Shown piece after piece: positions 29,033 through 60,949 of a stretch of DNA of 64,000 nucleotides (the stretch's first letter is position 1; every line of letters begins with the position of its first letter). The DNA is taken from contig NZ_CP019427.1 in the NCBI RefSeq assembly GCF_009834545.1, positions 3,106,001-3,170,000 of the forward strand, written 5' to 3'. Source of the DNA: Pseudomonas sp. S04 (GTDB lineage Bacteria > Pseudomonadota > Gammaproteobacteria > Pseudomonadales > Pseudomonadaceae). The notes beneath the pieces are model-generated. The model made no database searches. It was given only the letters and a program-made list of their open reading frames with translations, and had not been told where the DNA came from. Position numbers and translations under genes: made by a program.

Positions 29033-30298
29033 TCAGGCGGGCGCGACGTCAGCCCCGGCGGTGGCTCGGGCGTTCTTGCGCACGGCCTGGTACAGCAGGC
29101 TGGAGACCAGGAAGCCAACAATGGCCAGCAGGCTCATCAGGCTGAACACATAGTTGTAGCCTTGCTCGCCCGGGAAGTGGTCGAGGATCGAGCCGTAGAT
29201 GACGTAGGCGAACATGCCCGGTGCATAACCGATCAGGCAGCCGATGCCAAAGGCCGAGCCGGTGATGTGCTGGGGAATGCCGACTTCGCCCATGGGCGCC
29301 CAGAACACCCCACGCATGGAAAACACGATCAGCGCAAAAGACAGGGTGGCGGCCATGCCGGCGTAGATGTAACTCGGGCTTTTTGGAATCAGCATGATCA
29401 CGCCCATCAACGGCAACAGCGCCAGGAAAGCCCATTTCAGGTAGCGGCTGGTGCTCTTGAACTGCTTGTCGGCAATGAAGCCACCGGCAGGTCCGCCAAG
29501 GATTTTCAGGCAGTACTGGTTGATGATGCCGTAGGCACCGACCAGCGCCACCGGCAGTTGGTACATGTCCTTGAGGTAGGGAATGAAGTAGGTCAGGCCG
29601 CAGTACACGATATAGACCATGAACACGTTGAGGCTGACCAGCCAGATCCCCGGGACCTTGATGGCTTCCAACAGGTTCGACAGGCCGTTTTTTGCCTGCA
29701 CGGTGGTCGACGTGGTGCCGCCCTTGAGCAGGAACCAGGTCAGTGTCCCGGCCAGGATGTCGATCACCGAGTAGAACAGGATCGCCGATTTCAGCCCCGT
29801 TTCACCCGAACCCATGGCGACGAAGACCCCCAGCGCAGAAAAAGCCACCAGGGTATCGACCACGCCTCGGCCACCTTCCAGCAGCCCGAACAGGCGTCCT
29901 TGTTCCTTGTCGTCGCCCAGGTTGCGGATGGCCTTGAGCAGTGACGGCCAGAACAGGCAGTCGGCGCACACCGCCAGCAGGCTGAAGACAATCAACAGGT
30001 TGCTGAAGGGCGGGAAGGTCGCGAGGTACAGGCCCAGGCCGCCGGTACCCAGCAAGCCCAGGGGAATCAGCTTGCGCGTGTCGTAACGGTCGGCGAGCAT
30101 TCCGCCGACCACAAACAGCGCGGTCGCAATGATCGCGTTGGCGCTGAGCAGCAGGCCGATTTCAGTGTGGGTCAAACCCATGAACTCTTGCATGGGGATG
30201 TAGAAGGCGTCCTTGAGGTTCGCCAGTTTATAGATGGTGCCGCCACCGAGGATCAGGATCAGGAATCTGAGCCATTTGGCCTTGTCACGAGTTGTCAT
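29033..30298 (-). CDS. MFS transporter
   Basis: 421-aa carrier with 12 predicted TM segments; MLADRYDTRKL in the loop between TM2 and TM3 is the MFS signature. It is related to YihN-like carriers. Start ATG 30298 has GGAGA 7 nt upstream; the ORF extends 14 codons further without support. It lies 38 nt after the TIM-barrel gene and probably imports the substrate of that enzyme or of the larger locus beyond. Confidence 0.83.
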   Translation of the reverse strand: MTTRDKAKWLRFLILILGGGTIYKLANLKDAFYIPMQEFMGLTHTEIGLLLSANAIIATALFVVGGMLADRYDTRKLIPLGLLGTGGLGLYLATFPPFSNLLIVFSLLAVCADCLFWPSLLKAIRNLGDDKEQGRLFGLLEGGRGVVDTLVAFSALGVFVAMGSGETGLKSAILFYSVIDILAGTLTWFLLKGGTTSTTVQAKNGLSNLLEAIKVPGIWLVSLNVFMVYIVYCGLTYFIPYLKDMYQLPVALVGAYGIINQYCLKILGGPAGGFIADKQFKSTSRYLKWAFLALLPLMGVIMLIPKSPSYIYAGMAATLSFALIVFSMRGVFWAPMGEVGIPQHITGSAFGIGCLIGYAPGMFAYVIYGSILDHFPGEQGYNYVFSLMSLLAIVGFLVSSLLYQAVRKNARATAGADVAPA

Positions 30299-30336
30299 TG
30301 TTATTCTCCAAGCGTCGTCAGTGTGTCGCGTCGGGT

Positions 30337-31407
30337 TCAAGCGGGTGTGCAGGAGGCCAGGGTCAATTCGGCCAGGGTGCGCAACTCGGCCAGCAGGCCG
30401 CGCACGTAAGCGACCTGGTTGTTGGCCCAGCGGTGTTCATCGGCCAGCATGCGTTCCAGCGAGTAACCCGCTGGCAACGGCGTATCACTCATTTCCCGGT
30501 AGGCAATGAACGGGTCGGCGGACTCGTTGGTCTGGCGAAACGCCGGGGCTACGTAGTGGTTTTCCTGCTCGAGGATGAAGGCGATCACCTGGGGGCTGGA
30601 CTCGCCCAGCATCAGCAACTCGAACAGCATGCGGGCACTGGGCAAGTCGTCTTCGTCACTGCCTTGCAGCACGCCGTAATGGCCAAAACCACTGTGCTCA
30701 GGGACGATTTGCACGCCCTTGAGGTGGACCTGGCGAATGTGCGGCGCGAGGTTGTGCAGGGCCTGCAGCGGCTGTTCACAGGCATTGATCATGTTGCCGA
30801 AGTCGAACAGGGCATGCAGCCGGGGGTGGTTGAGGCGGCTGAGCAACTGGGCGATCTCGGCGCTCTTGAGTTCCTCGTGTTGCTCGAAGTCGAAGTACAG
30901 GTCATGGGCATCGGCCTGTTGCGCGAGGTAGCGCAGGTCGTTTTCGATCAGGTCCATGACCTGTGACAGTGAACCTTCGTAGCGTGAGTACACGCGGATG
31001 TTGCGCACGCCCAGGGCGCGGGCGATGGCGACCACTTGATCGACATCGGCTTGGCGAGTGCTGCTGATTTCCAGGTGCACTTCCAGGCCCAGGGCCCGGG
31101 CCTTGTCTGCAAACGCCTGCAACTGTGGGGCGCTCATCTGGCTCAGGCTGTTGGCCTCGCCGTCCAGCAGGTGCAGGCTCAAGCCCTGCAGCTCGTGGCG
31201 ATAGGCAAAGTCCAGGAGGTCGGCGGGGGTGACACGGCCGTGGGTGAGGTTGGTCAACAGGGGATAGGCGTGGGCAAACAGGCGCAGTTGGCCCAGGCGG
31301 TCGAGCAACTGGCGCGCCAGTTCCGGGGTCAGTGTTGCGGGCGCTTGGGCGGCGCCGGCCTTGTGACTGAGCAAGGCGCTGAAGCGTTGTTGGATCTTAT
31401 TGTTCAT
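30337..31407 (-). CDS. Xylose isomerase-like TIM-barrel protein (sugar phosphate isomerase/epimerase family)
   Basis: 356-aa AP_endonuc_2-fold protein. Probable metal ligands are E in VHLEISS, E in DFEQHEEL, D in ALFDFGNM and H in IRQVHLKG. The family covers isomerases, epimerases, dehydratases and lyases. The C-terminal ~80 residues (YVAPAFRQTNESADPFIAYREM onward) extend beyond the minimal barrel. First gene of a two-gene unit with the MFS carrier; the MocR gene lies upstream on the same strand. Reaction unknown. Confidence 0.75.
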   Translation of the reverse strand: MNNKIQQRFSALLSHKAGAAQAPATLTPELARQLLDRLGQLRLFAHAYPLLTNLTHGRVTPADLLDFAYRHELQGLSLHLLDGEANSLSQMSAPQLQAFADKARALGLEVHLEISSTRQADVDQVVAIARALGVRNIRVYSRYEGSLSQVMDLIENDLRYLAQQADAHDLYFDFEQHEELKSAEIAQLLSRLNHPRLHALFDFGNMINACEQPLQALHNLAPHIRQVHLKGVQIVPEHSGFGHYGVLQGSDEDDLPSARMLFELLMLGESSPQVIAFILEQENHYVAPAFRQTNESADPFIAYREMSDTPLPAGYSLERMLADEHRWANNQVAYVRGLLAELRTLAELTLASCTPA

Positions 31408-31519
31408 TCGAGTGGTTCCTGGTTCAGACACCGGGTCTACCGGCGCAACCTTTATCGCGCCAGTCAGGAACTCTCGATAGATCCATTATCGGTTAAATCA
31501 TAAGACCACTTGCCAGGCC

Positions 31520-33028
31520 TCAGCTTGCCGCGGGCAGGCACCCCATGTCGCGCAGGGCCTGGGCGAGTGCGGCGACTCGCGGCTGCGCCTGGTCCTCGGG
31601 GGTGCTGGCGAAGCCGATCAGCAACGCCGGTGGCTGGCGGTGCTCGATGCAGTAGTCGCTCAGGGCATAGGTGTAGATATGGCGCAACGTCAGCTCCCGG
31701 GCGATGAGCTGGTCATCCAGCTGCACGGGCAACCAGGCGATCAGGTGCATGCCGGCATCCACGGGCGTGACCTGGAAAAAGCTCCCCAGCTGTTGCTGCA
31801 ATTGCTCGACCAGCGCCTGCTGGCGGGCCTGGTACAGCGCGCGCATGCGGCGAATGTGGCCGAGAAAGTGGCCCTCGACCATGAAATCGGCAGTCACTGT
31901 CTGCAGCAGGGTCGGCGGGCTGCGATCCATGACCGCGCGCAGGGTGCAAAACGGCTCGATCAAGGCCTGGGGCAAAATCACGTAGCCCAGCCGCAGGGAG
32001 GGAAACAACACCTTGCTGAACGTGCCGACATAGATCACCCGTGCCCCCTGGTCCATGGCATAGAGCGCGGGCAGGGGGCGGCCGTGGTAGCGAAACTCAC
32101 TGTCGCAGTCATCTTCGATGATCCAGCTTTGCTGCTCCTCGGCCCAGTCGATGAGTTCCTGGCGCCGCGCGTAGCTCATGGTCACCCCCAGAGGGTGCTG
32201 GCGCGAGGGGGTGGTAAACACCAGGCGAGCGTCGGGACAACTGGCCAGGCCGTACTGCACGTCGATGCCCTGGTCGTCGATGGGCAAGGGCACCACGTGG
32301 CCACCCTGGGCCTGCAGGGCGATGCGCGCGGCGATATGCCCCGGATCCTCCATCCACACCCGGTCCTGGGGGTTGAGCAGGAGCATGCCCAGCAGGTTGA
32401 ACGCTTGCTGGGCCCCGGACACGATCACTACCTGCTCGGCAGAACAGTCGATCCCGCGAGCATCGAACACGTAGTGCGCGATCGCCGTGCGCAGGGCCTG
32501 TACGCCTTGCAGTTCGCCATAGCCGAGCATCGCCTTGCTCGGTTTGTGCAGGTGGCGGTTCATCAGGCGCTTCCACACAGCCTGGGGAAATGCATCGTAG
32601 GCGCTGTGGCTGGGCAGGAAGGAAGTCGGGCTGCCGGGCGCCCAGTCGGCATAGCTGATGCCCTGGAAATGGCTGCTGCGTAAAGACAATACCGAGTGAC
32701 TGAGGTCAGACAGGCGCGGCGGCTGGGGCAGGGCGTCAGGGGCGTTGGTGCTGCGGTTTTCCCACTCGGTGCCGACGTAGGTGCCCGCCCCGGTGCGCGA
32801 GGCCAGGAAACCCTCGGCCAGCAGTTGGTCAAACGCGTTGAGCAGGGTAATGCGCGACAGCCCCAGCTCCTTGCTCAACGTGCGGGTCGACGGCAGCCGC
32901 ACACCGCCCTGGATCCGGCCGTTGAGGATCTGCTTGCGAATCTGCAAATACAGCTGGCGGTACAGCGGTATGGAGCTGGTGCGGTCCAGCACGATGCCCG
33001 ACAGCAGCAAGCCAGAGGGGGATTTCAT
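31520..33028 (-). CDS. MocR/PdxR-type GntR-aminotransferase regulator
   Basis: 502-aa fusion. The N-terminal GntR winged HTH (about residues 20-85: PLYRQLYLQIRKQILNG...LPSTRTLSKELGLSRITL) is joined to a fold-type I aminotransferase-like domain (about 120-490), with the PLP lysine in VGTFSKVLFPSLRLGY and EDDCDSEF before it. MocR proteins sense PLP-bound amino compounds. It is divergent from the quinone oxidoreductase operon across a 237-nt gap, so it probably regulates that operon, itself, or both. Confidence 0.88.
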   Translation of the reverse strand: MKSPSGLLLSGIVLDRTSSIPLYRQLYLQIRKQILNGRIQGGVRLPSTRTLSKELGLSRITLLNAFDQLLAEGFLASRTGAGTYVGTEWENRSTNAPDALPQPPRLSDLSHSVLSLRSSHFQGISYADWAPGSPTSFLPSHSAYDAFPQAVWKRLMNRHLHKPSKAMLGYGELQGVQALRTAIAHYVFDARGIDCSAEQVVIVSGAQQAFNLLGMLLLNPQDRVWMEDPGHIAARIALQAQGGHVVPLPIDDQGIDVQYGLASCPDARLVFTTPSRQHPLGVTMSYARRQELIDWAEEQQSWIIEDDCDSEFRYHGRPLPALYAMDQGARVIYVGTFSKVLFPSLRLGYVILPQALIEPFCTLRAVMDRSPPTLLQTVTADFMVEGHFLGHIRRMRALYQARQQALVEQLQQQLGSFFQVTPVDAGMHLIAWLPVQLDDQLIARELTLRHIYTYALSDYCIEHRQPPALLIGFASTPEDQAQPRVAALAQALRDMGCLPAAS

Positions 33029-33146
33029 TGCACACTCGTCTACAGGAGGTTGGGGTTGGGCTGAAGTGGCTTGCGGCCAAGGTTACCCATAGGCCTGGGA
33101 TAAGTCATCCACGGTACCTTGAAGCCGTTGATCCGGCGCGCTCGAT

Positions 33147-33185
33147 TGTCACGAAATGAAAAGCCATTGTCGTCTGATGAGAAGC
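33147..33185 (+). promoter_or_regulatory. Putative AraC-type direct-repeat site (copy 1)
   Basis: 39-bp motif matching 41891-41929 at 31 of 39 positions in the same orientation. It contains two ATGA(A/G)AAGC half-sites with a 21-bp period, the spacing expected for an AraC-family activator on one DNA face. It ends 80 nt before the ATG of the quinone oxidoreductase gene. The AraC protein encoded at 40618-41664 is the candidate ligand; MocR is the alternative. Confidence 0.6.
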
Positions 33186-33265
33186 GGGGCCGCAGGCTGA
33201 GTCCTACAGTCCAATCAGCACAATTCGATGCCGCATGCCTATCTTGCAATGGAGAATAAGAAAAC

Positions 33266-34246
33266 ATGGCCAAAGCCGTCCGCTTTTACGAACCCGGTGG
33301 TCCCGATGTACTTCGCCTTGAAGACGTCGAAGTCGGCGAACCCGGTCCCGGCCAGGTTCGTCTTCGTCATGTGGCGGTCGGCCTGAACTATGCCGACACC
33401 TACTTTCGCAATGGCACCTACCCGATCCCAATGCCCAACGGCATGGGCGTGGAAGCTTCCGGGGTGGTCCAGGCCATTGGCGAAGGGGTCAGCAACGTAC
33501 AGGTTGGCGACCGTGTCACCTACACCGGCTTTCTCAACACCCTGGGGGCCTATAGCACCGAGCGCCTGATCCCGGCCGCGCCGCTGATCAAGCTGCCGGA
33601 AACCATCAGCTTCGAAACCGCCGCCGCCATGACCATGCGTGGCCTGACAGCCTCGTACCTGATGCGCCGCATCTATGACTTCAAACCCGGTGACAGTATT
33701 CTGCTGCACGCAGCCGCCGGTGGCGTGGGCCTGATCGTTTCGCAATGGGCCAAGCTGCTGGGCCTGACGGTGATCGGCACCGTGTCGACCGAGGCCAAGG
33801 CCGAAGTTGCCCGCGCCCACGGTTGCGACCACGTGATCAACTACAGCCACGAAGACGTTGCCCTGCGGGTGCGTGAATTGACCGATGGGGTAGGGGTCAA
33901 CGTGGTGTTCGACAGCGTTGGCAAAAACACCTTCATGGGCTCCCTCGATTCCCTCAAGCGTCGTGGCCTGCTGGTATGTGTCGGTACCGCTTCCGGTCCG
34001 ATCCCGCCATTCGACCCAGTGCTGCTGGCGATGAAGGGCTCGTTGTTCATGACCCGCCCGGCGCTGGCGGACTACATCTCGGACCCGGCAGAGAAGGCCG
34101 CCCTGGCCGGTGAACTGTTCGAGCTGGTCGGCAGCGGCCAGATCAAGATCGAGATCAACCAGCACTACGCCTTGCAGGACGCCGTCCAGGCCCATCGGGA
34201 CCTGGAGTCACGCAAGACCACGGGCTCGTCGATTTTCGTCATCTAA
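33266..34246 (+). CDS. NADPH:quinone oxidoreductase-type MDR protein (QOR family)
   Basis: 326-aa zinc-free medium-chain reductase. N-terminal catalytic domain, then a Rossmann nucleotide motif LLHAAAGGVGLIVSQWAKLLG (about residues 142-162) and QDAVQAHRDLESRKTTGS near the end, diagnostic of QOR. No structural-zinc cysteine cluster. Relatives reduce quinones, enones or enoyl-CoA. First gene of the plus-strand operon, 14 nt before the dioxygenase gene; probably reduces an unsaturated or carbonyl intermediate. Confidence 0.87.
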   Translation: MAKAVRFYEPGGPDVLRLEDVEVGEPGPGQVRLRHVAVGLNYADTYFRNGTYPIPMPNGMGVEASGVVQAIGEGVSNVQVGDRVTYTGFLNTLGAYSTERLIPAAPLIKLPETISFETAAAMTMRGLTASYLMRRIYDFKPGDSILLHAAAGGVGLIVSQWAKLLGLTVIGTVSTEAKAEVARAHGCDHVINYSHEDVALRVRELTDGVGVNVVFDSVGKNTFMGSLDSLKRRGLLVCVGTASGPIPPFDPVLLAMKGSLFMTRPALADYISDPAEKAALAGELFELVGSGQIKIEINQHYALQDAVQAHRDLESRKTTGSSIFVI

Positions 34247-34260
34247 GGGAGCCGCCTGCC

Positions 34261-35109
34261 ATGAGAGTCGAACAATTGACCTGCAGCATCGGCGCGGAAC
34301 TGATCGGCGTCAGCCTCGCCGATGCAGTCCACGACGACGGTCTTTTTGCCGAGATTCGTGCCCAGTTGCTCAAGCACCGGGTGGTGTTCCTGCGTAACCA
34401 GGACATCAGCCGCGCCGAGCATGTGGCCTTCGCCCGACGCTTCGGCGAGCTGGAGGATCACCCGGTGGCCGGCAGCGACCCGGATCACCCGGGCCTGGTG
34501 CGCATCTACAAGAATCCCGACCAACCGATGGACCGTTACGAAAACGCCTGGCACACCGACGCCACCTGGCGTGAAGCACCGCCCATGGGTTGCGTGTTGC
34601 GCTGCGTGGAGTGCCCGCCAGTGGGTGGCGACACGATGTGGGCGAACATGGTGGAGGCCTACGCGCGGCTGCCGGAAGACGTGAAGCTGAAGATTGCCGA
34701 GCTGCGCGCACGCCACAGCATCGAAGCCAGCTTCGGCGCCGCCATGCCGATCGAAAAACGCCTGGCGCTCAAGGCCATGTACCCGGATGCCGAGCACCCG
34801 GTCGTACGGACCCACCCGGAAACCGCTGAAAAGGTGTTGTTCGTCAACGCCTTCACCACCCATTTGAGCAACTACCACACCCCCGAGCGGGTGCGTTTCG
34901 GCCAGGACGCCAACCCGGGCGCCAGCGAACTGCTGCGCTACCTGATCAGCCAGGCCTATATCCCCGAGTACCAGGTGCGCTGGCGCTGGCAGCCCAACAG
35001 CATCGCCATCTGGGACAACCGCAGCACCCAGCATTACGCCGTCATGGACTACCCACCGTGCCATCGCAAGATGGAGCGGGCCGGGATCATCGGCGACAAG
35101 ACCTACTGA
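34261..35109 (+). CDS. TauD/TfdA-family Fe(II)/2-oxoglutarate dioxygenase
   Basis: 282-aa enzyme with the full facial triad: H98 and D100 in AWHTDATW and H258 in STQHYAVMDY. R269 or R273 in CHRKMERAG is placed to bind 2-oxoglutarate. Relatives hydroxylate taurine, alkyl sulfates, 2,4-D or gamma-butyrobetaine, releasing the adjacent group. The substrate is not determined; a YeiH-type anion exporter in the same operon makes a sulfonate worth testing. Start ATG 34261, with AGGGAG 8 nt upstream. Confidence 0.88.
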   Translation: MRVEQLTCSIGAELIGVSLADAVHDDGLFAEIRAQLLKHRVVFLRNQDISRAEHVAFARRFGELEDHPVAGSDPDHPGLVRIYKNPDQPMDRYENAWHTDATWREAPPMGCVLRCVECPPVGGDTMWANMVEAYARLPEDVKLKIAELRARHSIEASFGAAMPIEKRLALKAMYPDAEHPVVRTHPETAEKVLFVNAFTTHLSNYHTPERVRFGQDANPGASELLRYLISQAYIPEYQVRWRWQPNSIAIWDNRSTQHYAVMDYPPCHRKMERAGIIGDKTY

Positions 35110-35195
35110 AACACCGCAACGGCATTCGCACTCGTACAAGCGCTGCCCGGGCACGATCCCAGGTGCGCGAACAACCATAATAAAAGGAGTAACTC

Positions 35196-36248
35196 ATGCA
35201 ATTCTTTGACGATTCCCTGCACCCGGAAAACATGGAGAAGGTGGTCATCACCGTGGCCCCTTACGGCCCGGAGTGGATGCCCGAAGACTTCCCGGAAGAC
35301 ATCCCCCTGACCATGGATGAACAGGTGCAAAAGGCGGTCGATTGTTATGAGGCAGGTGCCACGGTCCTGCACCTGCATGTACGCGAGTTGGACGGCAAGG
35401 GCTCCAAGCGCCTGTCCAAGTTCAACGAACTGATTGCCGGCGTACGTGAAGCCGTGCCAGACATGATCATCCAGGTCGGCGGCTCGATTTCCTTTGCCCC
35501 GGAAAGTGATGGCGAAGCGGCCAAGTGGCTGTCGGACGACACCCGGCACATGCTGGCTGATCTGCAGCCCACGCCAGACCAGGTCACGGTAGCAATCAAC
35601 ACCACCCAGATGAACATCATGGAGCTGCTGTATCCGGAGTATCTGGAGGGCACTTCCCTGGCCAACCCGGGTATCCAGGCTGCGTATAGCGAAATGACCG
35701 TGCCGGCCGGCCCGGCCTGGGTCGCCGAGCACTTGCGCCGCCTGACCGCAGCCGGTGTGCAGCCGCACTTCCAACTGACCGGCATGCACGCCCTGGAAAC
35801 CCTCGAGCGCCTGGTGCGCAAGGGCATCTACATGGGGCCGTTGAACCTGACCTGGATCGGTATCGGCGGCGGCTTCGACGGCCCGAACCCGTTCAACTTC
35901 TTCAACTTCATCCACCGCGCGCCGAACGGTTGCACCCTGACCTCCGAATCGCTGCTCAAGAACGTCATGCCGTTCAACACCATGTCGATGGCCATGGGCA
36001 TGCACCCGCGCGTGGGCAATGAAGACACTATCATTGATCACAAGGGCGATCGGTTCAGCTCGGTTGCGCAGATCCAGCAAACCGTGCGCATCGCTCATGA
36101 ACTGGGTCGCGAGATCGCCAGCGGCAAAGAAGCCCGTGAGATCTACCGAATCGGTGTGCAGTACCAGAGTATCGAAGAAACCCTGTTGGCCAATGGTATG
36201 GCCCCCAACCGCAAGGTGGGCGAGAAAGGTGTGCCGCAACGCGGCTGA
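35196..36248 (+). CDS. BKACE-family beta-keto acid cleavage enzyme (3-keto-5-aminohexanoate cleavage-like)
   Basis: 350-aa TIM-barrel protein. The zinc pair H59/H61 lies in TVLHLHVRELDGKGS; IQVGGS and TWIGIGGGFDGPNPFNFFNF are further family landmarks. BKACE enzymes condense a beta-keto acid with acetyl-CoA, giving acetoacetyl-CoA (or another CoA thioester) plus a shortened acid; known substrates include 3-keto-5-aminohexanoate and dehydrocarnitine. It is longer than the usual ~275-310 aa, mostly by an N-terminal lead and inserts, so it probably falls in a less-studied subgroup. Ribosome site AAAAGGAG precedes ATG 35196. Confidence 0.87.
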   Translation: MQFFDDSLHPENMEKVVITVAPYGPEWMPEDFPEDIPLTMDEQVQKAVDCYEAGATVLHLHVRELDGKGSKRLSKFNELIAGVREAVPDMIIQVGGSISFAPESDGEAAKWLSDDTRHMLADLQPTPDQVTVAINTTQMNIMELLYPEYLEGTSLANPGIQAAYSEMTVPAGPAWVAEHLRRLTAAGVQPHFQLTGMHALETLERLVRKGIYMGPLNLTWIGIGGGFDGPNPFNFFNFIHRAPNGCTLTSESLLKNVMPFNTMSMAMGMHPRVGNEDTIIDHKGDRFSSVAQIQQTVRIAHELGREIASGKEAREIYRIGVQYQSIEETLLANGMAPNRKVGEKGVPQRG

Positions 36249-36256
36249 TCGCTGAC

Positions 36257-36283
36257 GCGGGGGAAGTTCAAGGCTTCCCCCGC
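36257..36283 (+). other. Intercistronic hairpin after the BKACE gene
   Basis: GCGGGGGAAG and CTTCCCCCGC form a perfect 10-bp stem with a 7-nt loop, 9 nt after the stop. No T-run follows, so it may stabilise the upstream mRNA or lower downstream expression instead of ending transcription. Confidence 0.5.
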
Positions 36284-36339
36284 ACTGCGTTGCTACAAGC
36301 TCGATAACAACAATTACAACAATGTTTCGAGGAGGCTGC

Positions 36340-37671
36340 ATGGCCTTTCACCCCATTGCCGCAGACGATGACGACGCCAGTGGTGTCGGTGTTGCGCGCA
36401 AATATGCCTGGATCGTCTTTGCCCTGACGTTCGGCCTGTTGATTTCCGATTACATGTCGCGCCAGGTGCTCAACGCGGTCTTTCCGATGCTCAAGGGCGA
36501 GTGGGCCCTGAGTGACGGCCAGTTGGGCCTGCTCAGCGGCATTGTCGCGCTGATGGTTGGCTTGCTGACCTTCCCTTTGTCGTTGCTGGCGGACCGCTTC
36601 GGTCGGGTCAAGAGCCTGGCGTTGATGGCGCTGCTGTGGAGCCTGGCCACCCTGGGTTGCGCGCTGGCCCAGGATTACCAGCAGATGTTCATTGCCCGCT
36701 TCATGGTGGGCGTGGGCGAGGCGGCCTACGGCAGCGTGGGTATTGCCGTGGTGATCTCGGTGTTTCCCAAGCACCTGCGGGCCACCCTGACCAGTGCGTT
36801 CATGGCTGGCGGCATGTTCGGTTCCGTGCTGGGCATGGCCCTGGGCGGCGCGATCGCGGCCAAGCTCGGCTGGCGCTGGTCGTTCGCCGGCATGGCGTTG
36901 TTTGGCCTGCTGCTGGCGGTGCTGTACCCGATCATCGTCAAGGAGGCACGCATTGCTCCGCAGCGGGCCAGCCAGGCCGCGAACAAGGTCGCCGCGGCGG
37001 TCAAGCGGCCGCTGCGTACCCTGTGTTCCAGCCCTTCGGTGATTGCCGCCTATATCGGCAGTGGCTTGCAGTTGTTCGTGGGCGGCACGGTGATTGTGTG
37101 GATGCCCAGCTACCTCAACCGTTACTACGACATGGCCACCGGCAAGGCCGGCGGCGTCGCAGCGATCATTGTGTTGTGCAGCGGCGCCGGGATGATCCTG
37201 TGCGGCATCCTCAGCGACCGCCTGTGTCGGCAATCGGCCCAGCGCAAGGTGTCCCTGGCAATCGCCTATTGCCTGGGCAGTTGCCTACTGCTGTCGGCAG
37301 CGTTCGCCTTGCCGCCAGGCCCTGCGCAGTTGCTGCTGATTTGCCTGGGGATGCTGATTGCGGCCGGGACGACCGGTCCTGCCGGGGCCATGGTTGCCAA
37401 CCTGACCCACTACTCGGTGCACGGTACGGCCTTTGCCACATTGACCCTGGCCAACAACTTGCTCGGCCTGGCCCCGGGGCCATTCATCACCGGCAAGGTG
37501 TCGGATGTGATCGGCCTGCAGGCGGCGTTTCAACTGGTGCCACTGGTGAGCATCGCGGCGGCCGCGGTGTTCTTTTACGCCAAGTGTCACTACCACAAGG
37601 ATATTGCCCGGCTTCAGGGCGAACAGGTCAACGATTCGGTTGGCCACGCGGTTGTAGAGGTGAAAGTGTGA
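36340..37671 (+). CDS. MFS transporter
   Basis: 443-aa carrier, 12 predicted TM segments. Signature LLADRFGRVKS between TM2 and TM3; FMVGVGEAAYGSVGIAVVISVFPKHLRAT is typical of the anion/organic acid:H+ symporter branch (ExuT/sialate-like). Start ATG 36340 follows GAGGAGG; ATG 36322 lies before that site. The stop overlaps the DsbA-like start by 4 nt (GTGA). Probable importer of the locus substrate. Confidence 0.87.
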   Translation: MAFHPIAADDDDASGVGVARKYAWIVFALTFGLLISDYMSRQVLNAVFPMLKGEWALSDGQLGLLSGIVALMVGLLTFPLSLLADRFGRVKSLALMALLWSLATLGCALAQDYQQMFIARFMVGVGEAAYGSVGIAVVISVFPKHLRATLTSAFMAGGMFGSVLGMALGGAIAAKLGWRWSFAGMALFGLLLAVLYPIIVKEARIAPQRASQAANKVAAAVKRPLRTLCSSPSVIAAYIGSGLQLFVGGTVIVWMPSYLNRYYDMATGKAGGVAAIIVLCSGAGMILCGILSDRLCRQSAQRKVSLAIAYCLGSCLLLSAAFALPPGPAQLLLICLGMLIAAGTTGPAGAMVANLTHYSVHGTAFATLTLANNLLGLAPGPFITGKVSDVIGLQAAFQLVPLVSIAAAAVFFYAKCHYHKDIARLQGEQVNDSVGHAVVEVKV

Positions 37672-38333
37672 GTGCTCGTTTACAGATTGATGTGTTTTTC
37701 GATTTCATCTGCCCCTGGTGCCTGATCGGCAAGCGCCAGCTGGAGCGGGCCCAGGCGTTGCTGCTCAGCCAGCAACCCGGGGTGAAAATCATTACCCAGT
37801 GGCACGGCGTGCAGTTGTTGCCGCACATGCCGGTCGGCGGGCAGCCCTTCGCCGAGTTCTACAGTCGCCGCCTGGGCAGCGCCGAAGCCGTCGGCCAACG
37901 CCAGTCCCAGGTGCAGCAGGCGGCGAACGCGGTGGGGGTGAGCATCGATTTCAGTCGCATCGCGACCATGCCCAATACCGCCGATGCCCACCGTTTGCTG
38001 GAGCGGGCCAGTCAAATGGGTTCGCCAGAGCAGCGCGATGCCTTGCTGGAACGTTTGTATGGTGCCTATTTCCAGCAGGGCGAGGACTTGGGATGCCGGC
38101 AGACCCTGCTGGCCATCGCTCAGGACTGCGGGTTCGAGGTCGCGGCGCTGGAGGATTGTCTGCGCGGCGATGGCCAGGAGTTTGTCGGTCATGGCGCTGG
38201 CGCCGCCAGCGGGGTGCCGTGTTTTCAGTTCGATCGACACCTGACGATGGTCGGCGCGCAACCGGCCGAAGCCCTGTTGGGCGCGATGCGCGAAGCCCTG
38301 CTGGAAAGCCAGCGTGAGCGGCAACCGGCATGA
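37668..38333 (+). CDS. DsbA-family thioredoxin-fold oxidoreductase (FrnE-like)
   Basis: 221-aa cytosolic DSBA-fold protein without a signal peptide. Active-site C15-P-W-C18 in FDFICPWCLIGKRQLE. The FrnE subgroup includes disulfide isomerases and proteins of aromatic or polyketide metabolism. It is likely to start at GTG 37668, with GAGG 7 nt upstream and a 4-nt overlap with the MFS gene; no ATG gives the conserved N-terminus. The stop overlaps the Rieske gene by 4 nt. Role in the pathway unknown; possibly handling a thiol- or CoA-bound intermediate. Confidence 0.82.
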   Translation: MSARLQIDVFFDFICPWCLIGKRQLERAQALLLSQQPGVKIITQWHGVQLLPHMPVGGQPFAEFYSRRLGSAEAVGQRQSQVQQAANAVGVSIDFSRIATMPNTADAHRLLERASQMGSPEQRDALLERLYGAYFQQGEDLGCRQTLLAIAQDCGFEVAALEDCLRGDGQEFVGHGAGAASGVPCFQFDRHLTMVGAQPAEALLGAMREALLESQRERQPA

Positions 38334-38656
38334 ACCGGCGGGTCCCTGTGCCTGCCGGAAAACTCCCGCAGGCAGGCGGTCGCGCACTGCTGGATCTGGA
38401 AGGTAAAAGCCTGGCGCTGTTCAACGTCGACGGCGAGCTGCTGGTGATCGACGACAGCTGTCCCCATCAGGGCTCGTCGTTGTGTGGCGGGCGCCTGGAG
38501 GGGCGAGTGATTCAATGCTGCGCCCACGGCCTGCGCTTCGATCTGCGCACGGGCTACCTGCTCAATTCCACCGCACTCAAGGTTGCCCAGTATCCGGTCG
38601 AGGTCATCGACGACCAGGCATTTATCGTTTTCCCTTGCGAGGAGTCCGCGCCATGA
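38330..38656 (+). CDS. Rieske-type [2Fe-2S] ferredoxin
   Basis: 108-aa Rieske domain protein. Cluster ligands are C44 and H46 in DDSCPHQGSS and C63 and H66 in IQCCAHGLRF. The size fits a stand-alone ferredoxin or a NirD-like subunit, yet no Rieske oxygenase or reductase gene is present, so its electron partner is missing or elsewhere. ATGA overlaps on both sides couple it to the DsbA-like and YeiH genes. Confidence 0.87.
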   Translation: MNRRVPVPAGKLPQAGGRALLDLEGKSLALFNVDGELLVIDDSCPHQGSSLCGGRLEGRVIQCCAHGLRFDLRTGYLLNSTALKVAQYPVEVIDDQAFIVFPCEESAP

Positions 38657-39663
38657 GCGCCATCGCTCTTACCCGTATTCATAGCCGCACCCGCGAACTG
38701 GCGCCGGGGTTTGTAGTCAGCCTGATCGTCGCGGCAGCGGCGTCGTTTTTGTCCGAGCACTACGGTGCGCCGGTCATGTTGTTCGCCTTGCTGCTGGGCA
38801 TGGCCCTGAACTTCCTCGCCGGTGAAGGCACCTGCAAGGCCGGCATCGAGTTCACGGCGCGCACCGTATTGCGCATTGGCGTGGCCTTGCTCGGCATGCG
38901 GATTACCCTGGAACAGATCGCCGCGCTGGGCTGGAAACCGGTGGCCCTGGTGGTGATCCTGGTAGTGGTGACCATCGGTGTCTCGGTGATCGCCGCCAAG
39001 GCCCTGGGGTTCCAGCGCCTGTTCGGCATGCTCACCGGTGGCGCCACTGCGATCTGTGGCGCCTCGGCGGCCCTCGCACTGGCGGCGGCCTTGCCCAACC
39101 ACCCGCAAAAAGAACGGGCCACGCTGTTCACGGTGATCGGGGTCTCGGCGTTGTCGACCCTGGCGATGATCCTGTACCCGATGATCGCCAATTGGCTGGA
39201 GTTGTCGCCGCAAGTGGCCGGGGTGTTCCTTGGCGCGACCATCCACGATGTCGCCCAGGTGGTGGGGGCCGGCTACAGCATGTCGACCGAGACCGGGGAT
39301 ACCGCCACGGTGATCAAGTTGATGCGCGTGGCCATGCTCCTGCCGGTGATCGTCTGTGCGGCCATGGTCACCCGGATGCAAGGCGCCGATACGACGGGCA
39401 AGCGCCCGCCGTTGCTGCCCTGGTTTGCCGTGGGTTTCCTGCTGCTGGCCTGCATCAACAGCACCGGCTGGGTCGCCCCGGTGGTGCAGGGCACGGTCAA
39501 CGAGCTGTCACGTTGGTGCCTGGTGGTGTCCATCAGCGCCCTGGGGATGAAGACCCAGCTCAAGGAGCTGGCTGCGGTGGGGATCAAGCCGATCCTGCTG
39601 ATGGTCGGGGAGACAGTATTCCTGGTGGTGCTGGTGCTGTTGTTGCTGCACTGGGGGCTGTAA
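38653..39663 (+). CDS. YeiH-family putative sulfate/anion exporter
   Basis: 336-aa membrane protein with about ten TM segments; LLGMALNFLAGEG, LGMRITLEQIAALG, GGATAICGASAALALA and GATIHDVAQVVGAGY are YeiH (UPF0324) hallmarks. Members are annotated as putative sulfate exporters and occur in sulfonate loci. It is the last gene of the operon before a strong terminator. It may expel sulfite or sulfate if the dioxygenase desulfonates its substrate; inference only. ATG 38653 overlaps the Rieske stop. Confidence 0.88.
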   Translation: MSAIALTRIHSRTRELAPGFVVSLIVAAAASFLSEHYGAPVMLFALLLGMALNFLAGEGTCKAGIEFTARTVLRIGVALLGMRITLEQIAALGWKPVALVVILVVVTIGVSVIAAKALGFQRLFGMLTGGATAICGASAALALAAALPNHPQKERATLFTVIGVSALSTLAMILYPMIANWLELSPQVAGVFLGATIHDVAQVVGAGYSMSTETGDTATVIKLMRVAMLLPVIVCAAMVTRMQGADTTGKRPPLLPWFAVGFLLLACINSTGWVAPVVQGTVNELSRWCLVVSISALGMKTQLKELAAVGIKPILLMVGETVFLVVLVLLLLHWGL

Positions 39664-39681: not shown

Positions 39682-39709
39682 GGCCGGCGCCACAAGCGCC
39701 GGCCTTTTT
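39682..39709 (+). terminator. Rho-independent terminator of the BKACE operon
   Basis: GGCCGGCGC / GCGCCGGCC, a perfect 9-bp GC stem with a CACAA loop, followed at once by TTTTT. It lies 18 nt after the YeiH stop. Confidence 0.93.
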
Positions 39710-40617: not shown

Positions 40618-41664
40618 CTACAGTTCGCCGGGGAGGGGAGGCAGGTCGATTGGCTGTTTGCTGCCCTGTTTTTGCGCGCTGCGCCAGGCTGCTGGGGGCA
40701 TGCCGAACTGGGTGATGAACCAGCGGGTAAAGGAGCTGGCCATGGAGTAGCCAAGCATGTCGGCGATGCGTCCCAAGGTGTAGTTGGGGTTGTCCAGGTA
40801 GCGCAGCACCAGGTCGCGCCGGACCTCGTTGACCAGGTCGTTGAAGGCGCAGCCATCTTCCTTGAGCCGGCGCTGCAGGGTGCGCACGTTCATGCCCTGG
40901 GTCTGGGCGATCTGCTCGATGGTCGCGCGCCCCATGGGCAGCAACAGATAGATGGCCTTGCGCACCTCAAACAACATCGAGGCGCCCTCGTGGCTCAGCA
41001 ACGAGTCCAGGTAGCTCTGTGCATAGCGGGCCATGGCCGGGTCGGCATGGGGGTTGGTCATGTCCAGGCTGGCATCGGAACAGACAATGCCGTTGAACTC
41101 ACTGCCGAACTCCAGGGTGCAGCCAAACAGCCGCCGATGCAGTTGCAGGTTATCGGGAGGCTGGTGGGTGAAATGCACGCGGTAAGGATGCCAATGGCTG
41201 CCGAGCAAGGCGGCGCACAGGCGGAACATCACCCCGATTGCCAGCTCAGTGGCCTGGCGCGAGGGCATGGGCGTCTCGGTGACCACTTCTTCACGAATGA
41301 TCACCATCTTGCCGGCTTCTTCGATGAAAATCGCCAGCGAATCGTTCATCAGGTGCCGGTAGTGCACCACCACCTGCAAGGCATCGCGCAAGGTCCGCTG
41401 GTGGCTGAGCAACAGGCTGACCACGCCGAAATCCGAGAGTTGGCGCGACTCGGCCATGCTCAGGCCGAAGGTCTGGCAGCCACTGGCCAGGGCCGAGTCT
41501 TCCAGCAGGCGCACGGCGGCATCGATCGGGATGCGCTGTTCCGGGGCGAGCAACTGGGCGCGGCTGAGGCCGACCCCGGCCATCACATCGCGTGGGTTGA
41601 ACCCCAGGTACTGGGTGACTTCCAGGTAGTTGGTCAAGACGGCGGCGCGAACAAGCTTGGTCAT
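40618..41664 (-). CDS. AraC-family transcriptional regulator (Arabinose_bd type)
   Basis: 348-aa regulator. The N-terminal ~190 residues form the 'arabinose_bd' sensor domain common in pseudomonad regulators of lipid and amine catabolism. C-terminal double HTH at about residues 235-335 (ATIEQIAQTQGMNVRTLQRRLKEDGCAFNDLVNEVRRDLVLRYL...YTLGRIADMLGYSMASSFTRWFITQFGMPPAAWR). It is divergent from the alpha/beta-hydrolase gene. A 21-bp-period direct repeat in that gap, and a near copy before the quinone oxidoreductase operon, are its likely sites. Confidence 0.9.
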   Translation of the reverse strand: MTKLVRAAVLTNYLEVTQYLGFNPRDVMAGVGLSRAQLLAPEQRIPIDAAVRLLEDSALASGCQTFGLSMAESRQLSDFGVVSLLLSHQRTLRDALQVVVHYRHLMNDSLAIFIEEAGKMVIIREEVVTETPMPSRQATELAIGVMFRLCAALLGSHWHPYRVHFTHQPPDNLQLHRRLFGCTLEFGSEFNGIVCSDASLDMTNPHADPAMARYAQSYLDSLLSHEGASMLFEVRKAIYLLLPMGRATIEQIAQTQGMNVRTLQRRLKEDGCAFNDLVNEVRRDLVLRYLDNPNYTLGRIADMLGYSMASSFTRWFITQFGMPPAAWRSAQKQGSKQPIDLPPLPGEL

Positions 41665-42018: not shown

Positions 42019-42585
42019 GTGGACAAATTGCAGACTGCCGCAACCGTTCTGATCGTACCGGGCTTGCGCGAGCACGTTGCCGAGCATTGGCAAACGTTGC
42101 TGGCCGAGCAACTTTGCAAGGTGCGCAGCGTTCCCCCACTGACCACCGATAAACTGGACTGCGCCAAGCGCGTCGAGGCGATCCAGCACGCGCTCGAGCA
42201 GATCGACGGGCCGGTGATCCTGGTGGCCCACAGTGCCGGTGTGCTGATGGTCGCGCACTGGGCCGCCCGCCACACACGTGCGATCAAGGGCGCCCTGTTG
42301 GCCGCGCCACCCGACCTCGATGCCGCCTGGCCGCAAGGCTACCCATCCCCTGAAACCTTGCGCACCCAAGGTTGGGACCCGCTACCCAATGGCCCTCTGC
42401 CGTTCCGCAGCCTGGTCGCCGCCAGCACCAATGATCACCTGGCCAGCCTACAAGCCGTGCAACGCATGGCCCAGGGCTGGGGCGCCGAACTGCGCAACGT
42501 CGGCGCGGTCGGTCATCTCAACCCGGCCGCGGGCTTCGGCCCCTGGCCACAGGCCTACACCCTGATCCAGGAACTGGATCGTTAG
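42019..42585 (+). CDS. Small serine alpha/beta hydrolase (RBBP9/YdeN family)
   Basis: 188-aa RBBP9-type hydrolase. The nucleophile serine is in VAHSAGVLMVAHW (elbow A-H-S-A-G), acid D in AASTNDHLA and histidine in GAVGHLNPAAGFG. Size matches the family. Start is GTG 42019; no ATG lies near the VLIVPGL strand. Substrate unknown, probably a small ester. Positioned between the AraC gene and the DUF1302 operon; it may precede that operon on a common message, since the 129-nt gap shows no terminator. Confidence 0.83.
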   Translation: MDKLQTAATVLIVPGLREHVAEHWQTLLAEQLCKVRSVPPLTTDKLDCAKRVEAIQHALEQIDGPVILVAHSAGVLMVAHWAARHTRAIKGALLAAPPDLDAAWPQGYPSPETLRTQGWDPLPNGPLPFRSLVAASTNDHLASLQAVQRMAQGWGAELRNVGAVGHLNPAAGFGPWPQAYTLIQELDR

Positions 42586-42714: not shown

Positions 42715-44727
42715 ATGCACAACAATAAGAGTCACGGTTTCACCCCATCGCGTTACACCTTGCTGGCCTCGGCCATCCTCGCCGCCAGCATGCCGGTGGC
42801 CCACGGTTTTGAACTCGACACGGGGAACCCGGACTGGACCGCGCGCCTGGACAACACCGTCAAGTACAACTACGGGGTGCGTACTGAAAGCGCCGACAAA
42901 CGCATGTTGGCGACACCCAACAACAACGATGGCGACTACAACTTTCGCAAGGCCGGTACCAACATCAGCAACCGTATCGACCTGTTGACCGAGATGGACG
43001 TGGTCTACAAGAACAGCATGGGTTTTCGGGTCAGCGCCGCCAGCTGGTACGACAAGGCCTATGAGAACGCTGGCTCGAACTCCAATCCGTTCGTCAACGG
43101 CAACGATGCGCGCTCCGGCCTGGTGGCCAATGACCCACGCCTGGCGGGTGTCACGGGCGACAATGTCGGCAACGGCAGCCCGCACCTGAGCAACTACGCC
43201 CAGCGTTACTACACCGGGCCGTCCGGGGAAATCCTCGACGCGTTCGTGTTCTACAGCACCGAAGTGGGCGAGGAGTCGTTGCTCAGCGTCAAGGCCGGCC
43301 AGCACAACGTGTTCTGGGGCGAAACCCTGCTCAACCCGGTGCACTCGGTCAGCTACGGCCAATCGGGCCTGGACCTGGCCAAGCTGGCGGCGTCGCCGGG
43401 CACTGAAGCCAAGGAGCTGTTCGTTCCGCGTAACCAGCTGTCGATGTCGTTCACCGTGAATCCGGAGCTGACCGTCGGCGCCCAGTACTTCCTCGACTGG
43501 GACGCCGCGCGCCTGCCGGAAGCCGGCACCTACTATGGCGGCTCCGACCTCGTGGGCTTCGGCGCGCAATCCTTCCTGCTCGGCAACACCAACTCCGTGG
43601 TCCCGGGCAGCCCGCTGGGCTGTGGCCTGGCACCGTGCAACGGCTTGACCAACGTGCGTCGTGGGCATGACCTGACGCCGGGCAGCAGCGGTGATTGGGG
43701 CGTGATGGCCAAATGGTCTCCGGCCTGGCTGGACGGCACCCTCGGCGTCTACTACCGCAACACCTCGGACATCCTGCCGCAAGCCTGGTTGAACGCCACC
43801 GGGCTGAGCTCGGCCAACCCCAGCGGCACCCCGCCGACCGGGCAAGTGCCGGCCGTGATCAACACCCTCAACTCGTTGAGCACCAGCACCTACCAACTGG
43901 CCTATGCCGACAACATCCAGGTGTTCGGCCTGAGCCTGTCCAAGGACGTCGGTGGGGTGAGCGTCGGCTCGGACCTGAATATCCGCCACAACATGCCGCT
44001 GGCGAGCATTCCGGCGATTGTCAGTTCTTCCGGGCCACTGGGCCTGGGCGCCGGCCTTGGCCTGTTGCCGGCCCGTACTGCCGCCACCGGTGTGGTCTAT
44101 GACACCCCGAGCCGGGGCGACAGCATGAGCGCCACGGGCGACACCTTGCACTGGACCCTCAACGGTCTGGTGAGCCTGCCAAAAAGCCCGCTGTACGACT
44201 CGGCCAACCTGCTCGCCGAGCTGTACTACAGCAACCTGCTCAAGCTCGATGACAAAAACGAGGCGCTGTACAAGGGCAACGGCAGCTATCGCGGGATCGA
44301 CGCGCCAACCCGCGACAACTGGGGCATTGCCGTCAACTTCACGCCGACCTGGTACCAGGTATTCCCGGGCGTCGACCTCAACATGCCGCTGTCGGTCAAC
44401 GTCGGTCTGGACGGTGTCTCGCCAGTCTCCGGCGGGGGCGCCAAGGACACCGGCAACTACGCAGTCGGCTTCGGCGCCGTGGCGTACAACAAATACTTTG
44501 TCGACCTCAAGTACGTCGATTCCTTCGGCAAGTCCGACAAGTGTGACAACAGCGGTTCGAGCACCGGCGCAGCCAATGCCGGCAGCGGCGACGGCTCGAC
44601 CCCGAACGCCTTCAGCGGTAACGAAAACTACGCCTGCTATGGCGGGGGCTACTCAGCCTTTTCCGGTGGCGGAGCCACTACCCAAGACCGTGGTGCCCTG
44701 TACCTGACGATGAAAACCACGTTTTAA
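42715..44727 (+). CDS. DUF1302-family outer-membrane-associated protein
   Basis: 670-aa secreted protein with signal RYTLLASAILAASMPVAHG and mature start near FELDTGNPDW. Alternating-hydrophobicity strands, aromatic ends and a C-terminal phenylalanine (LYLTMKTTF) look like an outer-membrane beta-barrel. DUF1302 proteins almost always pair with DUF1329 and an RND carrier in loci for hydrophobic substrates. Start ATG 42715, with GGAGA 8 nt upstream; the in-frame 42661 start is not supported. First gene of a six-gene operon. Confidence 0.88.
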   Translation: MHNNKSHGFTPSRYTLLASAILAASMPVAHGFELDTGNPDWTARLDNTVKYNYGVRTESADKRMLATPNNNDGDYNFRKAGTNISNRIDLLTEMDVVYKNSMGFRVSAASWYDKAYENAGSNSNPFVNGNDARSGLVANDPRLAGVTGDNVGNGSPHLSNYAQRYYTGPSGEILDAFVFYSTEVGEESLLSVKAGQHNVFWGETLLNPVHSVSYGQSGLDLAKLAASPGTEAKELFVPRNQLSMSFTVNPELTVGAQYFLDWDAARLPEAGTYYGGSDLVGFGAQSFLLGNTNSVVPGSPLGCGLAPCNGLTNVRRGHDLTPGSSGDWGVMAKWSPAWLDGTLGVYYRNTSDILPQAWLNATGLSSANPSGTPPTGQVPAVINTLNSLSTSTYQLAYADNIQVFGLSLSKDVGGVSVGSDLNIRHNMPLASIPAIVSSSGPLGLGAGLGLLPARTAATGVVYDTPSRGDSMSATGDTLHWTLNGLVSLPKSPLYDSANLLAELYYSNLLKLDDKNEALYKGNGSYRGIDAPTRDNWGIAVNFTPTWYQVFPGVDLNMPLSVNVGLDGVSPVSGGGAKDTGNYAVGFGAVAYNKYFVDLKYVDSFGKSDKCDNSGSSTGAANAGSGDGSTPNAFSGNENYACYGGGYSAFSGGGATTQDRGALYLTMKTTF

Positions 44728-44767
44728 CTCACGAATCGCTGACTCGAATCAGCAGGAGAATAACAAG

Positions 44768-46126
44768 ATGAAATTCGTGCACACCGTGTTGGCCGCTTCA
44801 CTGGCCCTGGTCATAGCCGGCCAGGCCCAAGCCGCCGTCTCCGCCCAGGAAGCCGCCAAGCTGGGCAGCAGCCTGACCCTGGTCGGGGCAGAAAAGGCCG
44901 GCAATGCCGATGGCTCGATTCCCGCCTACAGCGGCGGCCTGACCACGCCACCGGCCAGCTTCAAGGCCGGCGACAGCATGCGTCCGGACCCTTTTGCCGA
45001 TGAGAAGCCGGTGCTGGTGATCGACGGCAAGAATGCCGAGCAGTACAAGGGCGCGCTGACGGCGACCACCCTGGAGCTGGCCAAGCGTTTCCCGACCTTT
45101 CACGTCAACGTCTACCCGACCCACCGCACCGTCACCTTGCCCAAGGCCGTGCTGGACAATGGCCTGAAGAACGCCACCGGCGCCAAGTCCCTGGACGGCG
45201 GCCTGGCCATCGACAACGTGCTGCCCGGCGTACCGTTCCCGATCCCGCAGTCGGGCAACGAGGCGATGTGGAACTTCCTGCTGCGCTACCAGGGGGTCAA
45301 CATCAACTCCAAGTACGACTCCTGGAACGTCGACTCCGCCGGCGTGGCGAGCCTGGCGATCACCGGCCAGGCAATGATTTCCTACCCGATCTACGAAAAC
45401 CTCGCGCAGCCCATCAGCAGTGCCGACGTGTACTACCAGATGAAGCTGTCGTACACCGGTCCTGCACGCCGGGCCGGCGAAGCGATCATGCTCAAGGACG
45501 CCGCCAACCCGCTGCAACAACCACGTCGCGCCTGGCAATACCTGCCTGGCCAGCGTCGCGTCAAGCTGGCCCCGAACCTGGCCTACGACACACCGAACCC
45601 AGGTACCGCCGGCGCGGGCACCTACGACGATGTATTCGTGTTCAACGGGGCGCTGGACCGCTACGACTGGAAGCTGGTGGGCAAGCAGGAAATGATCGTG
45701 CCCTACAACACCTACAAGCTGACCTACGCCCAGGATCCGAAGGCGCTGGCGACCCCCAATCACCTGGCCCCGGACTATGTACGCTGGGAAAAACACCGGG
45801 TGTGGGTGGTCGAGGGCAACCTCAAGGCCGGCGCCCGGCACATCTACCAGAAACGCCGCTTCTACCTCGATGAAGACAGCTGGACCGCTCTGGCCTCAGA
45901 CCAGTACGACGCCCGTGGCCAACTGTATCGCGGCTCCTTCGCGTTTCTCAGCCAGAGCTATGACAAGCAGATCCCGGATTCCACGCCTTTCATGATCTAC
46001 GACCTGGTCGGTGGCTCCTACAACATCAACGGTGTGGTCGGCCCGTACGGCGGCATCAAGTACATCGAGCCACTCTCCAAGGCGCAGTGGTCGCCGGAGT
46101 CCCTGGCAGGTTCGGGCATTCGCTGA
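44768..46126 (+). CDS. DUF1329-family periplasmic/outer-membrane protein
   Basis: 452-aa protein with a Sec signal (MKFVHTVLAASLALVIAGQAQA) and the DUF1329 pattern: AKLGSSLTLVGAEKAGNADGSIPAYSGGL at the mature N-terminus, RRAWQYLPGQRRVKLAPNLAYDTPNP in the middle and YEKHRVW-like VRWEKHRVWVVEG later. The fold relates to LolA/LolB-like lipid-binding barrels, suggesting carriage of a hydrophobic molecule across the periplasm. 40 nt after DUF1302; GGAG precedes ATG 44768. Confidence 0.88.
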   Translation: MKFVHTVLAASLALVIAGQAQAAVSAQEAAKLGSSLTLVGAEKAGNADGSIPAYSGGLTTPPASFKAGDSMRPDPFADEKPVLVIDGKNAEQYKGALTATTLELAKRFPTFHVNVYPTHRTVTLPKAVLDNGLKNATGAKSLDGGLAIDNVLPGVPFPIPQSGNEAMWNFLLRYQGVNINSKYDSWNVDSAGVASLAITGQAMISYPIYENLAQPISSADVYYQMKLSYTGPARRAGEAIMLKDAANPLQQPRRAWQYLPGQRRVKLAPNLAYDTPNPGTAGAGTYDDVFVFNGALDRYDWKLVGKQEMIVPYNTYKLTYAQDPKALATPNHLAPDYVRWEKHRVWVVEGNLKAGARHIYQKRRFYLDEDSWTALASDQYDARGQLYRGSFAFLSQSYDKQIPDSTPFMIYDLVGGSYNINGVVGPYGGIKYIEPLSKAQWSPESLAGSGIR

Positions 46127-46149
46127 TCGGCAAGGACGCCAGGTGTCAA

Positions 46150-46187
46150 CGCCAGGCCACACGGTTGTGTGGCCTGGCGCAGTTTTT
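46150..46187 (+). terminator. Intra-operon terminator/attenuator hairpin
   Basis: CGCCAGGCCACAC and GTGTGGCCTGGCG form a perfect 13-bp stem with loop GGTT; three bases later comes TTTTT (46183-46187). It lies between the DUF1329 and YCF48-like genes of one operon, so partial termination probably gives more of the first two proteins. Confidence 0.8.
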
Positions 46188-46202
46188 CGAAGAGGACGCG
46201 GT

Positions 46203-47276: not shown

Positions 47277-47307
47277 GACCTCGAATCCTTAGAGCGAGAA
47301 CCCAGAC

Positions 47308-49857: not shown

Positions 49858-51634
<1,777 letters not shown>

Positions 51635-58501: not shown

Positions 58502-58514
58502 ATATACGCCTCCC

Positions 58515-59729: not shown

Positions 59730-59740
59730 GAATTGGGCCC

Positions 59741-60901: not shown

Positions 60902-60949
60902 CGATTTTCCTCGGTTCTTGTTAGGGGGTTGCCAGGCAAAAGCAACCCA

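Follow-up and report, generated by a model that had tools for sequence, protein, structure and literature searches.

What might be the substrate of a group of genes, found in Pseudomonas sp. S04, which encodes a dioxygenase resembling TauD next to a protein of the DUF849 family and, a few genes further along, a YeiH-family membrane protein? These genes lie within a stretch of 64,000 nucleotides (here, the window) of a host genome that is a single contig of 6.1 Mb. An original prediction, made from the letters of the window, had described one catabolic unit running from positions 29033 to 39663, organized around a MocR regulator and ended by a terminator, with a combination of enzymes matching no known pathway. 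The genes then named are indeed present, i.e., all are intact open frames with the domains ascribed to them, two MFS carriers included. Literature searches, which were thin on subscription journals, found no paper on this gene set. As far as those searches reach, the part families are known while their combination, along with a clade-wide loss of a catalytic glutamate from the DUF849 protein, is undescribed.

The group is viewed here, tentatively, as a catabolic cluster induced by its substrate, an organic anion that is in part hydrophobic. An organosulfonate, or an acid much like one, is the likeliest candidate. Its borders, however, are not those originally drawn, and one of the reactions originally proposed, cleavage by a beta-keto acid cleavage enzyme (BKACE), has become doubtful.

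A conserved block of seven genes

Much of what follows is based on 80 ‘named’ loci, that is, the closest relatives of the window's DUF849 protein out of 458 found, 75 from Pseudomonas and five from Acinetobacter. In 79 of these 80 the genes for QOR, the TauD-like dioxygenase, DUF849, MFS2, DsbA, Rieske and YeiH proteins are contiguous, the exception (L082) starting at a contig end and being without QOR only, so that QOR is found in 79 and the dioxygenase, MFS2, DsbA, Rieske and YeiH genes each in all 80. A search for conservation of the gene set, which had been put forward as a check on the original prediction, therefore does return a unit, i.e., seven plus-strand genes that look catabolic. 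Gene content and conservation are in this respect direct observations.

The block begins with QOR, an NADPH:quinone reductase of the MDR family (33266..34246) with Pfam ADH_N and ADH_zinc_N domains and an NCBIfam PRK10754 match of 361.9 bits (cut-off 348). There follow the Fe(II)/2-oxoglutarate dioxygenase (34261..35109; PF02668), the 350-residue DUF849 protein (35196..36248; PF05853) and MFS2 (36340..37671, with 36322 as a possible start), an MFS carrier whose best NCBIfam match, to a D-galactonate transporter subfamily, is under cut-off. The DsbA-fold protein, which is FrnE-like and has a CPWC motif (37668..38333; PF01323), has a GTG start overlapping the MFS2 stop, and is followed by a Rieske-type 2Fe-2S ferredoxin (38330..38656; PF00355) and by the YeiH-family protein, a predicted sulfite/sulfate exporter (38653..39663; PF03601 at 244 bits, above cut-off, and TIGR00698 at 160.4 bits, below the cut-off of 232.6). 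Successive gaps are of 14, 86 and 73-91 nucleotides, after which 4-nucleotide stop/start overlaps (GTGA or ATGA) join MFS2, DsbA, Rieske and YeiH. The genes from QOR to YeiH look like one operon. A terminator, as originally noted, is found after YeiH, as a pattern match only, in a plus-strand hairpin at 39682..39704 with a 9-bp G+C stem and a run of T.

Outside of the named set the lineages of several genomes are inferred, and genes beyond the window were called by homology and codon-position G+C. QOR, dioxygenase and DUF849 genes are grouped on annotated plasmids of Azoarcus, Novosphingobium, Rhodococcus, Tsukamurella, Streptomyces and Caballeronia, and also in Paraburkholderia. The same plasmid clusters hold, in varying combinations, genes for an AraC regulator, an MFS carrier, a small hydrolase and an acyl-CoA ligase, with the small hydrolase gene standing within the core operon in several relatives and with an envelope gene set related to the window's own (the DUF1302 group, below) near the core in Azoarcus. 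Approximately 11 kb separate the genes for the dioxygenase and the 350-residue DUF849 protein in Diaphorobacter.

At the level of genomes, and with the host genome counted in the first and last instances, the dioxygenase is found in 14 of 398 Pseudomonadota (E <= 1e-100) and, at E <= 1e-120, in 92 of 249 members of one family, presumed to be Burkholderiaceae, while 61 of 298 Pseudomonas have the DUF849 protein (E <= 1e-60). A further 56 loci, five of them from Pseudomonas, were picked for a dioxygenase or DUF849 match, and their counts consequently describe the company that the dioxygenase keeps, not prevalence. Within 8 kb of it there are QOR in 45, DUF849 in 44, AraC in 39, MFS2 in 37, the hydrolase in 33, an AMP-forming acyl-CoA ligase in 25, a porin in 23, Rieske in 15, YeiH and TctC in 12 each, and DsbA in 10, with the other 12 dioxygenases having no DUF849 gene inside of that distance. 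One Pseudomonas locus (L166:4901-12615) holds a paralogous QOR-dioxygenase-DUF849-MFS cluster, followed downstream by genes for two SDRs, an HD-domain protein and an FAA hydrolase, and probably serving a different substrate.

A TauD-like dioxygenase with a changed amine site

Comparison was of 141 dioxygenases, i.e., the window's plus 140 of 143 extracted, three having been dropped for length. The Fe ligands (H98, D100, H258) and the 2-oxoglutarate residues (R269, T125, the latter at the column of TauD Thr126) are identical in all 141, as are H67 and R273, matching the sulfonate anchors His70 and Arg270 of TauD. Not kept is the taurine amine site, Asn95 and Tyr73 of TauD. The Asn95 column is Glu throughout (141/141), whereas at the Tyr73 column 113 sequences have Ala, 21 Val and just one Tyr, with the Val102 column mostly Ala and the Phe104 column mostly Trp. 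The host's other TauD, on reading by eye, keeps both amine-site residues and adjoins frames which look tauB-like and tauC-like. As a separate taurine-type TauD is present beside tauBC-like frames, the window copy should serve some other substrate, and by its residues it looks like a TauD paralogue for another acid.

Among solved structures the window enzyme is closest to 5VN6 (E 4e-166) and then to TauD (1GQW, 3PVJ), both of which share its Fe, 2-oxoglutarate and sulfonate-anchor residues. 5VN6 is a close relative that is named a taurine dioxygenase, and no substrate test was found for it. From TauD itself the window enzyme differs in its amine-site columns and in lacking linkage to tauABC. 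The AtsK and Rv3406 sulfate-ester dioxygenases share the TauD fold, and AtsK has the anion histidine as well, but they are more distant (134-154 bits versus 184 for TauD). They serve in sulfur scavenging and are not known to have DUF849 or QOR partners.

Sister dioxygenases, 64-71% identical, occur in loci L123, L124, L157 and L159 together with a different alpha/beta-hydrolase and a ChrR-type cupin, the latter annotated as ‘2,4-dihydroxyacetophenone dioxygenase family’ in L123 and L124. These loci may represent a second module, one for cleavage of a dicarbonyl or hydroxyketone.

A DUF849 protein without the usual catalytic base

At 350 residues the DUF849 protein is longer than 13 related Protein Data Bank (PDB) chains, which have 275-334, in keeping with the original remark that it exceeds characterized members. 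It has the DUF849 TIM-barrel fold of the BKACEs, with an extended C-terminus and, following strand 3, a longer loop. Over 131 clade sequences (the window's and, once two short ones had been dropped from 132 extracted, 130 others; the set is rich in near-identical Pseudomonas), the zinc ligands H59, H61 and E276, along with R272, are present in every one, and D277, partner to R272 in an Arg/Asp pair, is found in 21 of 21 sequences. At the column of the catalytic base, though, is Gln193 in 130 of the 131, versus Glu in all 39 DUF849 comparators, these being the best-scoring DUF849 loci only. The window protein also has Gln138 where 38 of the 39 comparators have Asn.

The Gln193 column aligns with Glu171 of BKACE15 and with E143 of Kce. 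In BKACE15 the E171L change abolished activity and E171D left 5% (PMC11961710). Gln193 thus stands where the catalytic-base Glu is expected, and for that reason the protein should not, on its residues, be classed as a canonical BKACE. The same residue test argues against the name “3-keto-5-aminohexanoate cleavage protein”, under which members are labeled in annotated plasmid records (which have the dioxygenase as “TauD/TfdA family dioxygenase”). Relative to the PF05853 structures of Kce (2Y7D-G) and BKACE15 (8RIO/8RIP/9HNF), that is, the window protein differs in Gln193, in Gln138, in its loop and in its C-terminal extension.

Departure of a DUF849 protein from BKACE chemistry has a precedent in BsfD of flavophos biosynthesis, in which a basic residue reaches a strong acid group by way of an insertion after strand 3 (PMC12871164). 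BsfD nevertheless keeps the Glu, unlike the window protein, as judged from chain 9zsc, which is taken to be BsfD since its Phe is residue 166, as it is in that paper. The word dioxygenase is absent from the paper's main text.

Borders of the unit

The conserved unit does not end at 39663 but instead reaches rightward, the seven genes usually being followed by those for an AraC-type regulator, an α/β-hydrolase and a DUF1302 protein. As flanks of the named loci extend to 10 kb at most, counts of these genes are lower bounds. The AraC-type regulator (40618..41664, minus strand; Arabinose_bd and HTH_18) is in at least 72 of the 80 and likely controls the cluster. The small alpha/beta serine hydrolase (42019..42585, plus strand; PF06821) is in at least 65. 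Plus-strand genes with DUF1302, DUF1329, YCF48-like and MMPL/RND domain matches (42718..49857) form an envelope set of a kind often tied to hydrophobic compounds, with DUF1302 in at least 63, DUF1329 in at least 49, YCF48-like in at least 41 and MMPL beyond the flanks. Further along on the plus strand are an acyl-CoA dehydrogenase (49850..51634) and an AMP-forming acyl-CoA ligase (51658..53301).

To the left, the minus-strand genes for MFS1 (29033..30298), a xylose-isomerase-like TIM barrel protein (30337..31407) and a MocR/PdxR-type regulator (31520..33028) lie outside of the core. MFS1 and TIM are each in 18 of the 80 named loci and MocR in 19. The TIM protein is found in 40 of 298 Pseudomonas genomes (the host genome counted), of which 35 also have the DUF849 gene, yet the two are no more than 8 kb apart in just 16 of those 35. 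From the 24 loci where TIM either is apart from DUF849 or is in a genome without it, ten were fetched, and in all ten MocR, TIM and MFS1 form a free-standing three-gene cassette without the dioxygenase block. As this cassette stands alone in the fetched loci and is optional in the named ones, it is a separate module, though one tending to share genomes with the DUF849 block (Fisher p about 1e-23, a figure not corrected for kinship). A single functional unit around MocR, as first proposed, is thus not borne out, nor are its borders; that the two sides belong together is partly favored by their shared occurrence in genomes.

From sulfonate to carbonyl: the proposed pathway and its rivals

If the cluster does serve an organosulfonate, then MFS2 and the envelope proteins would import the acid, whereupon the TauD-like dioxygenase would hydroxylate the acid-bearing carbon, causing sulfite to leave and a carbonyl to stay. 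YeiH would export the released sulfite, and the zinc-dependent DUF849 enzyme would act on the carbonyl product in a reaction that does without the base customary in BKACEs. The resulting fragments would reach beta-oxidation by way of the small hydrolase, the acyl-CoA ligase and the acyl-CoA dehydrogenase, with QOR, DsbA and Rieske probably handling reactive or redox by-products. These reactions and their order, along with substrate identity and induction, we infer from gene content and from the residues observed. Bound up with this scheme is a possibility that is a little more doubtful still, namely that the 350-residue DUF849 clade is a new type of enzyme, one lacking the BKACE base and working with a TauD paralogue of its own in a soil pathway that is widely shared yet undescribed, i.e., an oxygenative C-S cut followed by splitting or rearrangement of the carbonyl by zinc chemistry.

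Consistent with a sulfonate are the contiguity of the seven genes, the invariant anchors, the separate taurine TauD of the host and an acyl-CoA ligase no more than 8 kb away in 25 of the 56 further loci. The window YeiH is, in addition, the sole copy in the host genome (E <= 0.001), and different lineages likewise have YeiH close to the dioxygenase. That is, among the further loci it is found (at 8 kb or less) in Pseudomonas (L148, L164, L165), in another genus of the same family (L149, L150, L153), in Novosphingobium (L117), in another class (L157), at two loci of a single genome from another family (L158, L159), and in two actinobacteria, Rhodococcus (L114) and Streptomyces (L115), whose copies are just 30-31% identical. 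In Salmonella, YeiH is the main sulfite-resistance factor (PMC12880088). The Salmonella YeiE/YeiH pair described there is alike in having a YeiH-family membrane protein, but the window YeiH has no adjoining LysR gene, is inside of a predicted catabolic operon and falls below the YeiH cut-off.

Several points weigh against a sulfonate. None of the 20 loci L168-L187, from a family presumed to be Burkholderiaceae, has YeiH, and of the 56 further loci just 12, three of these from Pseudomonas, have it near the dioxygenase, for which reason release of sulfite need not be a general feature. The window YeiH itself is under the NCBIfam YeiH cut-off. AtsK and unassigned homologues of TauD share the histidine anchor, which therefore is not taurine-specific and leaves room for a carboxylate as substrate. 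The block is without a sulfonate ABC importer, and we know of no natural sulfonate that suits all of the genes. The sulfonate route of the original prediction thus retains its dioxygenase anchors and its precedent for sulfite resistance, but with a link between YeiH and sulfite that is suggestive, not general.

A TfdA-like role is the first rival. Here the dioxygenase would attack an ether- or otherwise heteroatom-substituted carboxylate (e.g., an aryloxy or alkoxy acid), freeing a phenol or alcohol, with QOR handling a quinone and YeiH a lineage-limited accessory. TfdA-family enzymes act on carboxylates, the loci L168-L187 do without YeiH, and QOR is the most frequent of the dioxygenase's neighbors (45/56). 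Genes of the DUF1302/PF07044/COG1033/COG4447 kind have, moreover, been linked to aromatic compounds in Betaproteobacteria (PMC6449761). The protein, though, is nearer to TauD (184 bits) than to RdpA-type enzymes (141) or TfdA (73), and YeiH recurs across unrelated lineages, leaving this role possible yet rather improbable. An ordinary BKACE ending appears less probable again. It would have the dioxygenase make a beta-keto acid and DUF849, with a re-tuned site, perform acetyl-CoA-dependent cleavage to acetoacetate and an acyl-CoA, perhaps propionyl-CoA. The kept zinc ligands and R272/D277 pair agree with this, as does the Arg having once been proposed as the base (PMC11961710), and two Streptomyces loci have an acetoacetate-CoA ligase after the core, with methylcitrate-cycle genes in that place in one locus from Caballeronia. 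In the further loci, however, an acetoacetate-CoA ligase is near in 2 of 56 and prp genes in 1 of 56, and the Gln in place of Glu171 speaks against the cleavage. So too do the Diaphorobacter locus L119 and the locus L181, which carry a canonical-type DUF849 protein plus an SDR near the 350-residue one, suggesting that the two proteins have separate jobs.

A carnitine- or betaine-like route, with the dioxygenase as gamma-butyrobetaine hydroxylase and with subsequent oxidation and BKACE cleavage, had been the other original suggestion. Carnitine is indeed a product of hydroxylases with the TauD fold, and 3-dehydrocarnitine is cleaved by some DUF849 enzymes. The window dioxygenase is nearest to TauD instead, with none of 26 PDB matches (E <= 0.001) being a betaine hydroxylase, and neither a hydroxy-acid dehydrogenase nor a betaine importer is within the block. 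Partners of cdh-type carnitine clusters, i.e., carnitine dehydrogenase and betaine/carnitine binding protein, were not found among the scanned window genes. The host's second DUF849 gene, by contrast, keeps the catalytic Glu and is flanked by frames that by eye resemble just those two proteins. Given this other, apparently carnitine-type locus, the changed amine pocket and the missing dehydrogenase, a carnitine role for the window genes is very improbable.

Other features of the window

Between YeiH and AraC, at 39786-40577, is a near-palindromic element of about 790 bp with arms of 172, 73 and 39 nucleotides, in which no gene-sized conserved frame was found. Its first half, used as a query, matches 89 pieces in the host genome, and the element probably belongs to a repeat family with a few dozen genomic copies, judging from these matches. 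Related pieces occur in several Pseudomonas relatives as well. A tyrosine recombinase (Phage_integrase) gene at 27641-28597, which has a LysR gene on one side and the MocR-TIM-MFS1 cassette on the other, may be the sign of an insertion point. At 57680-63941 is a second CoA-linked catabolic set, with a CitE/RipC-like C-C lyase and an acyl-CoA dehydrogenase, plus frames that by eye are MaoC-like and CaiB-like.

Significance

Given how often the dioxygenase (92 of 249 genomes in one family) and the DUF849 protein (61 of 298 in Pseudomonas) turn up, current maps seem to lack a common soil substrate along with the pathway for its use. Solving what this cluster does would correct many annotations. 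It might also add a new reaction to the DUF849 family and explain the mineralization of a class of acids, possibly sulfonates.

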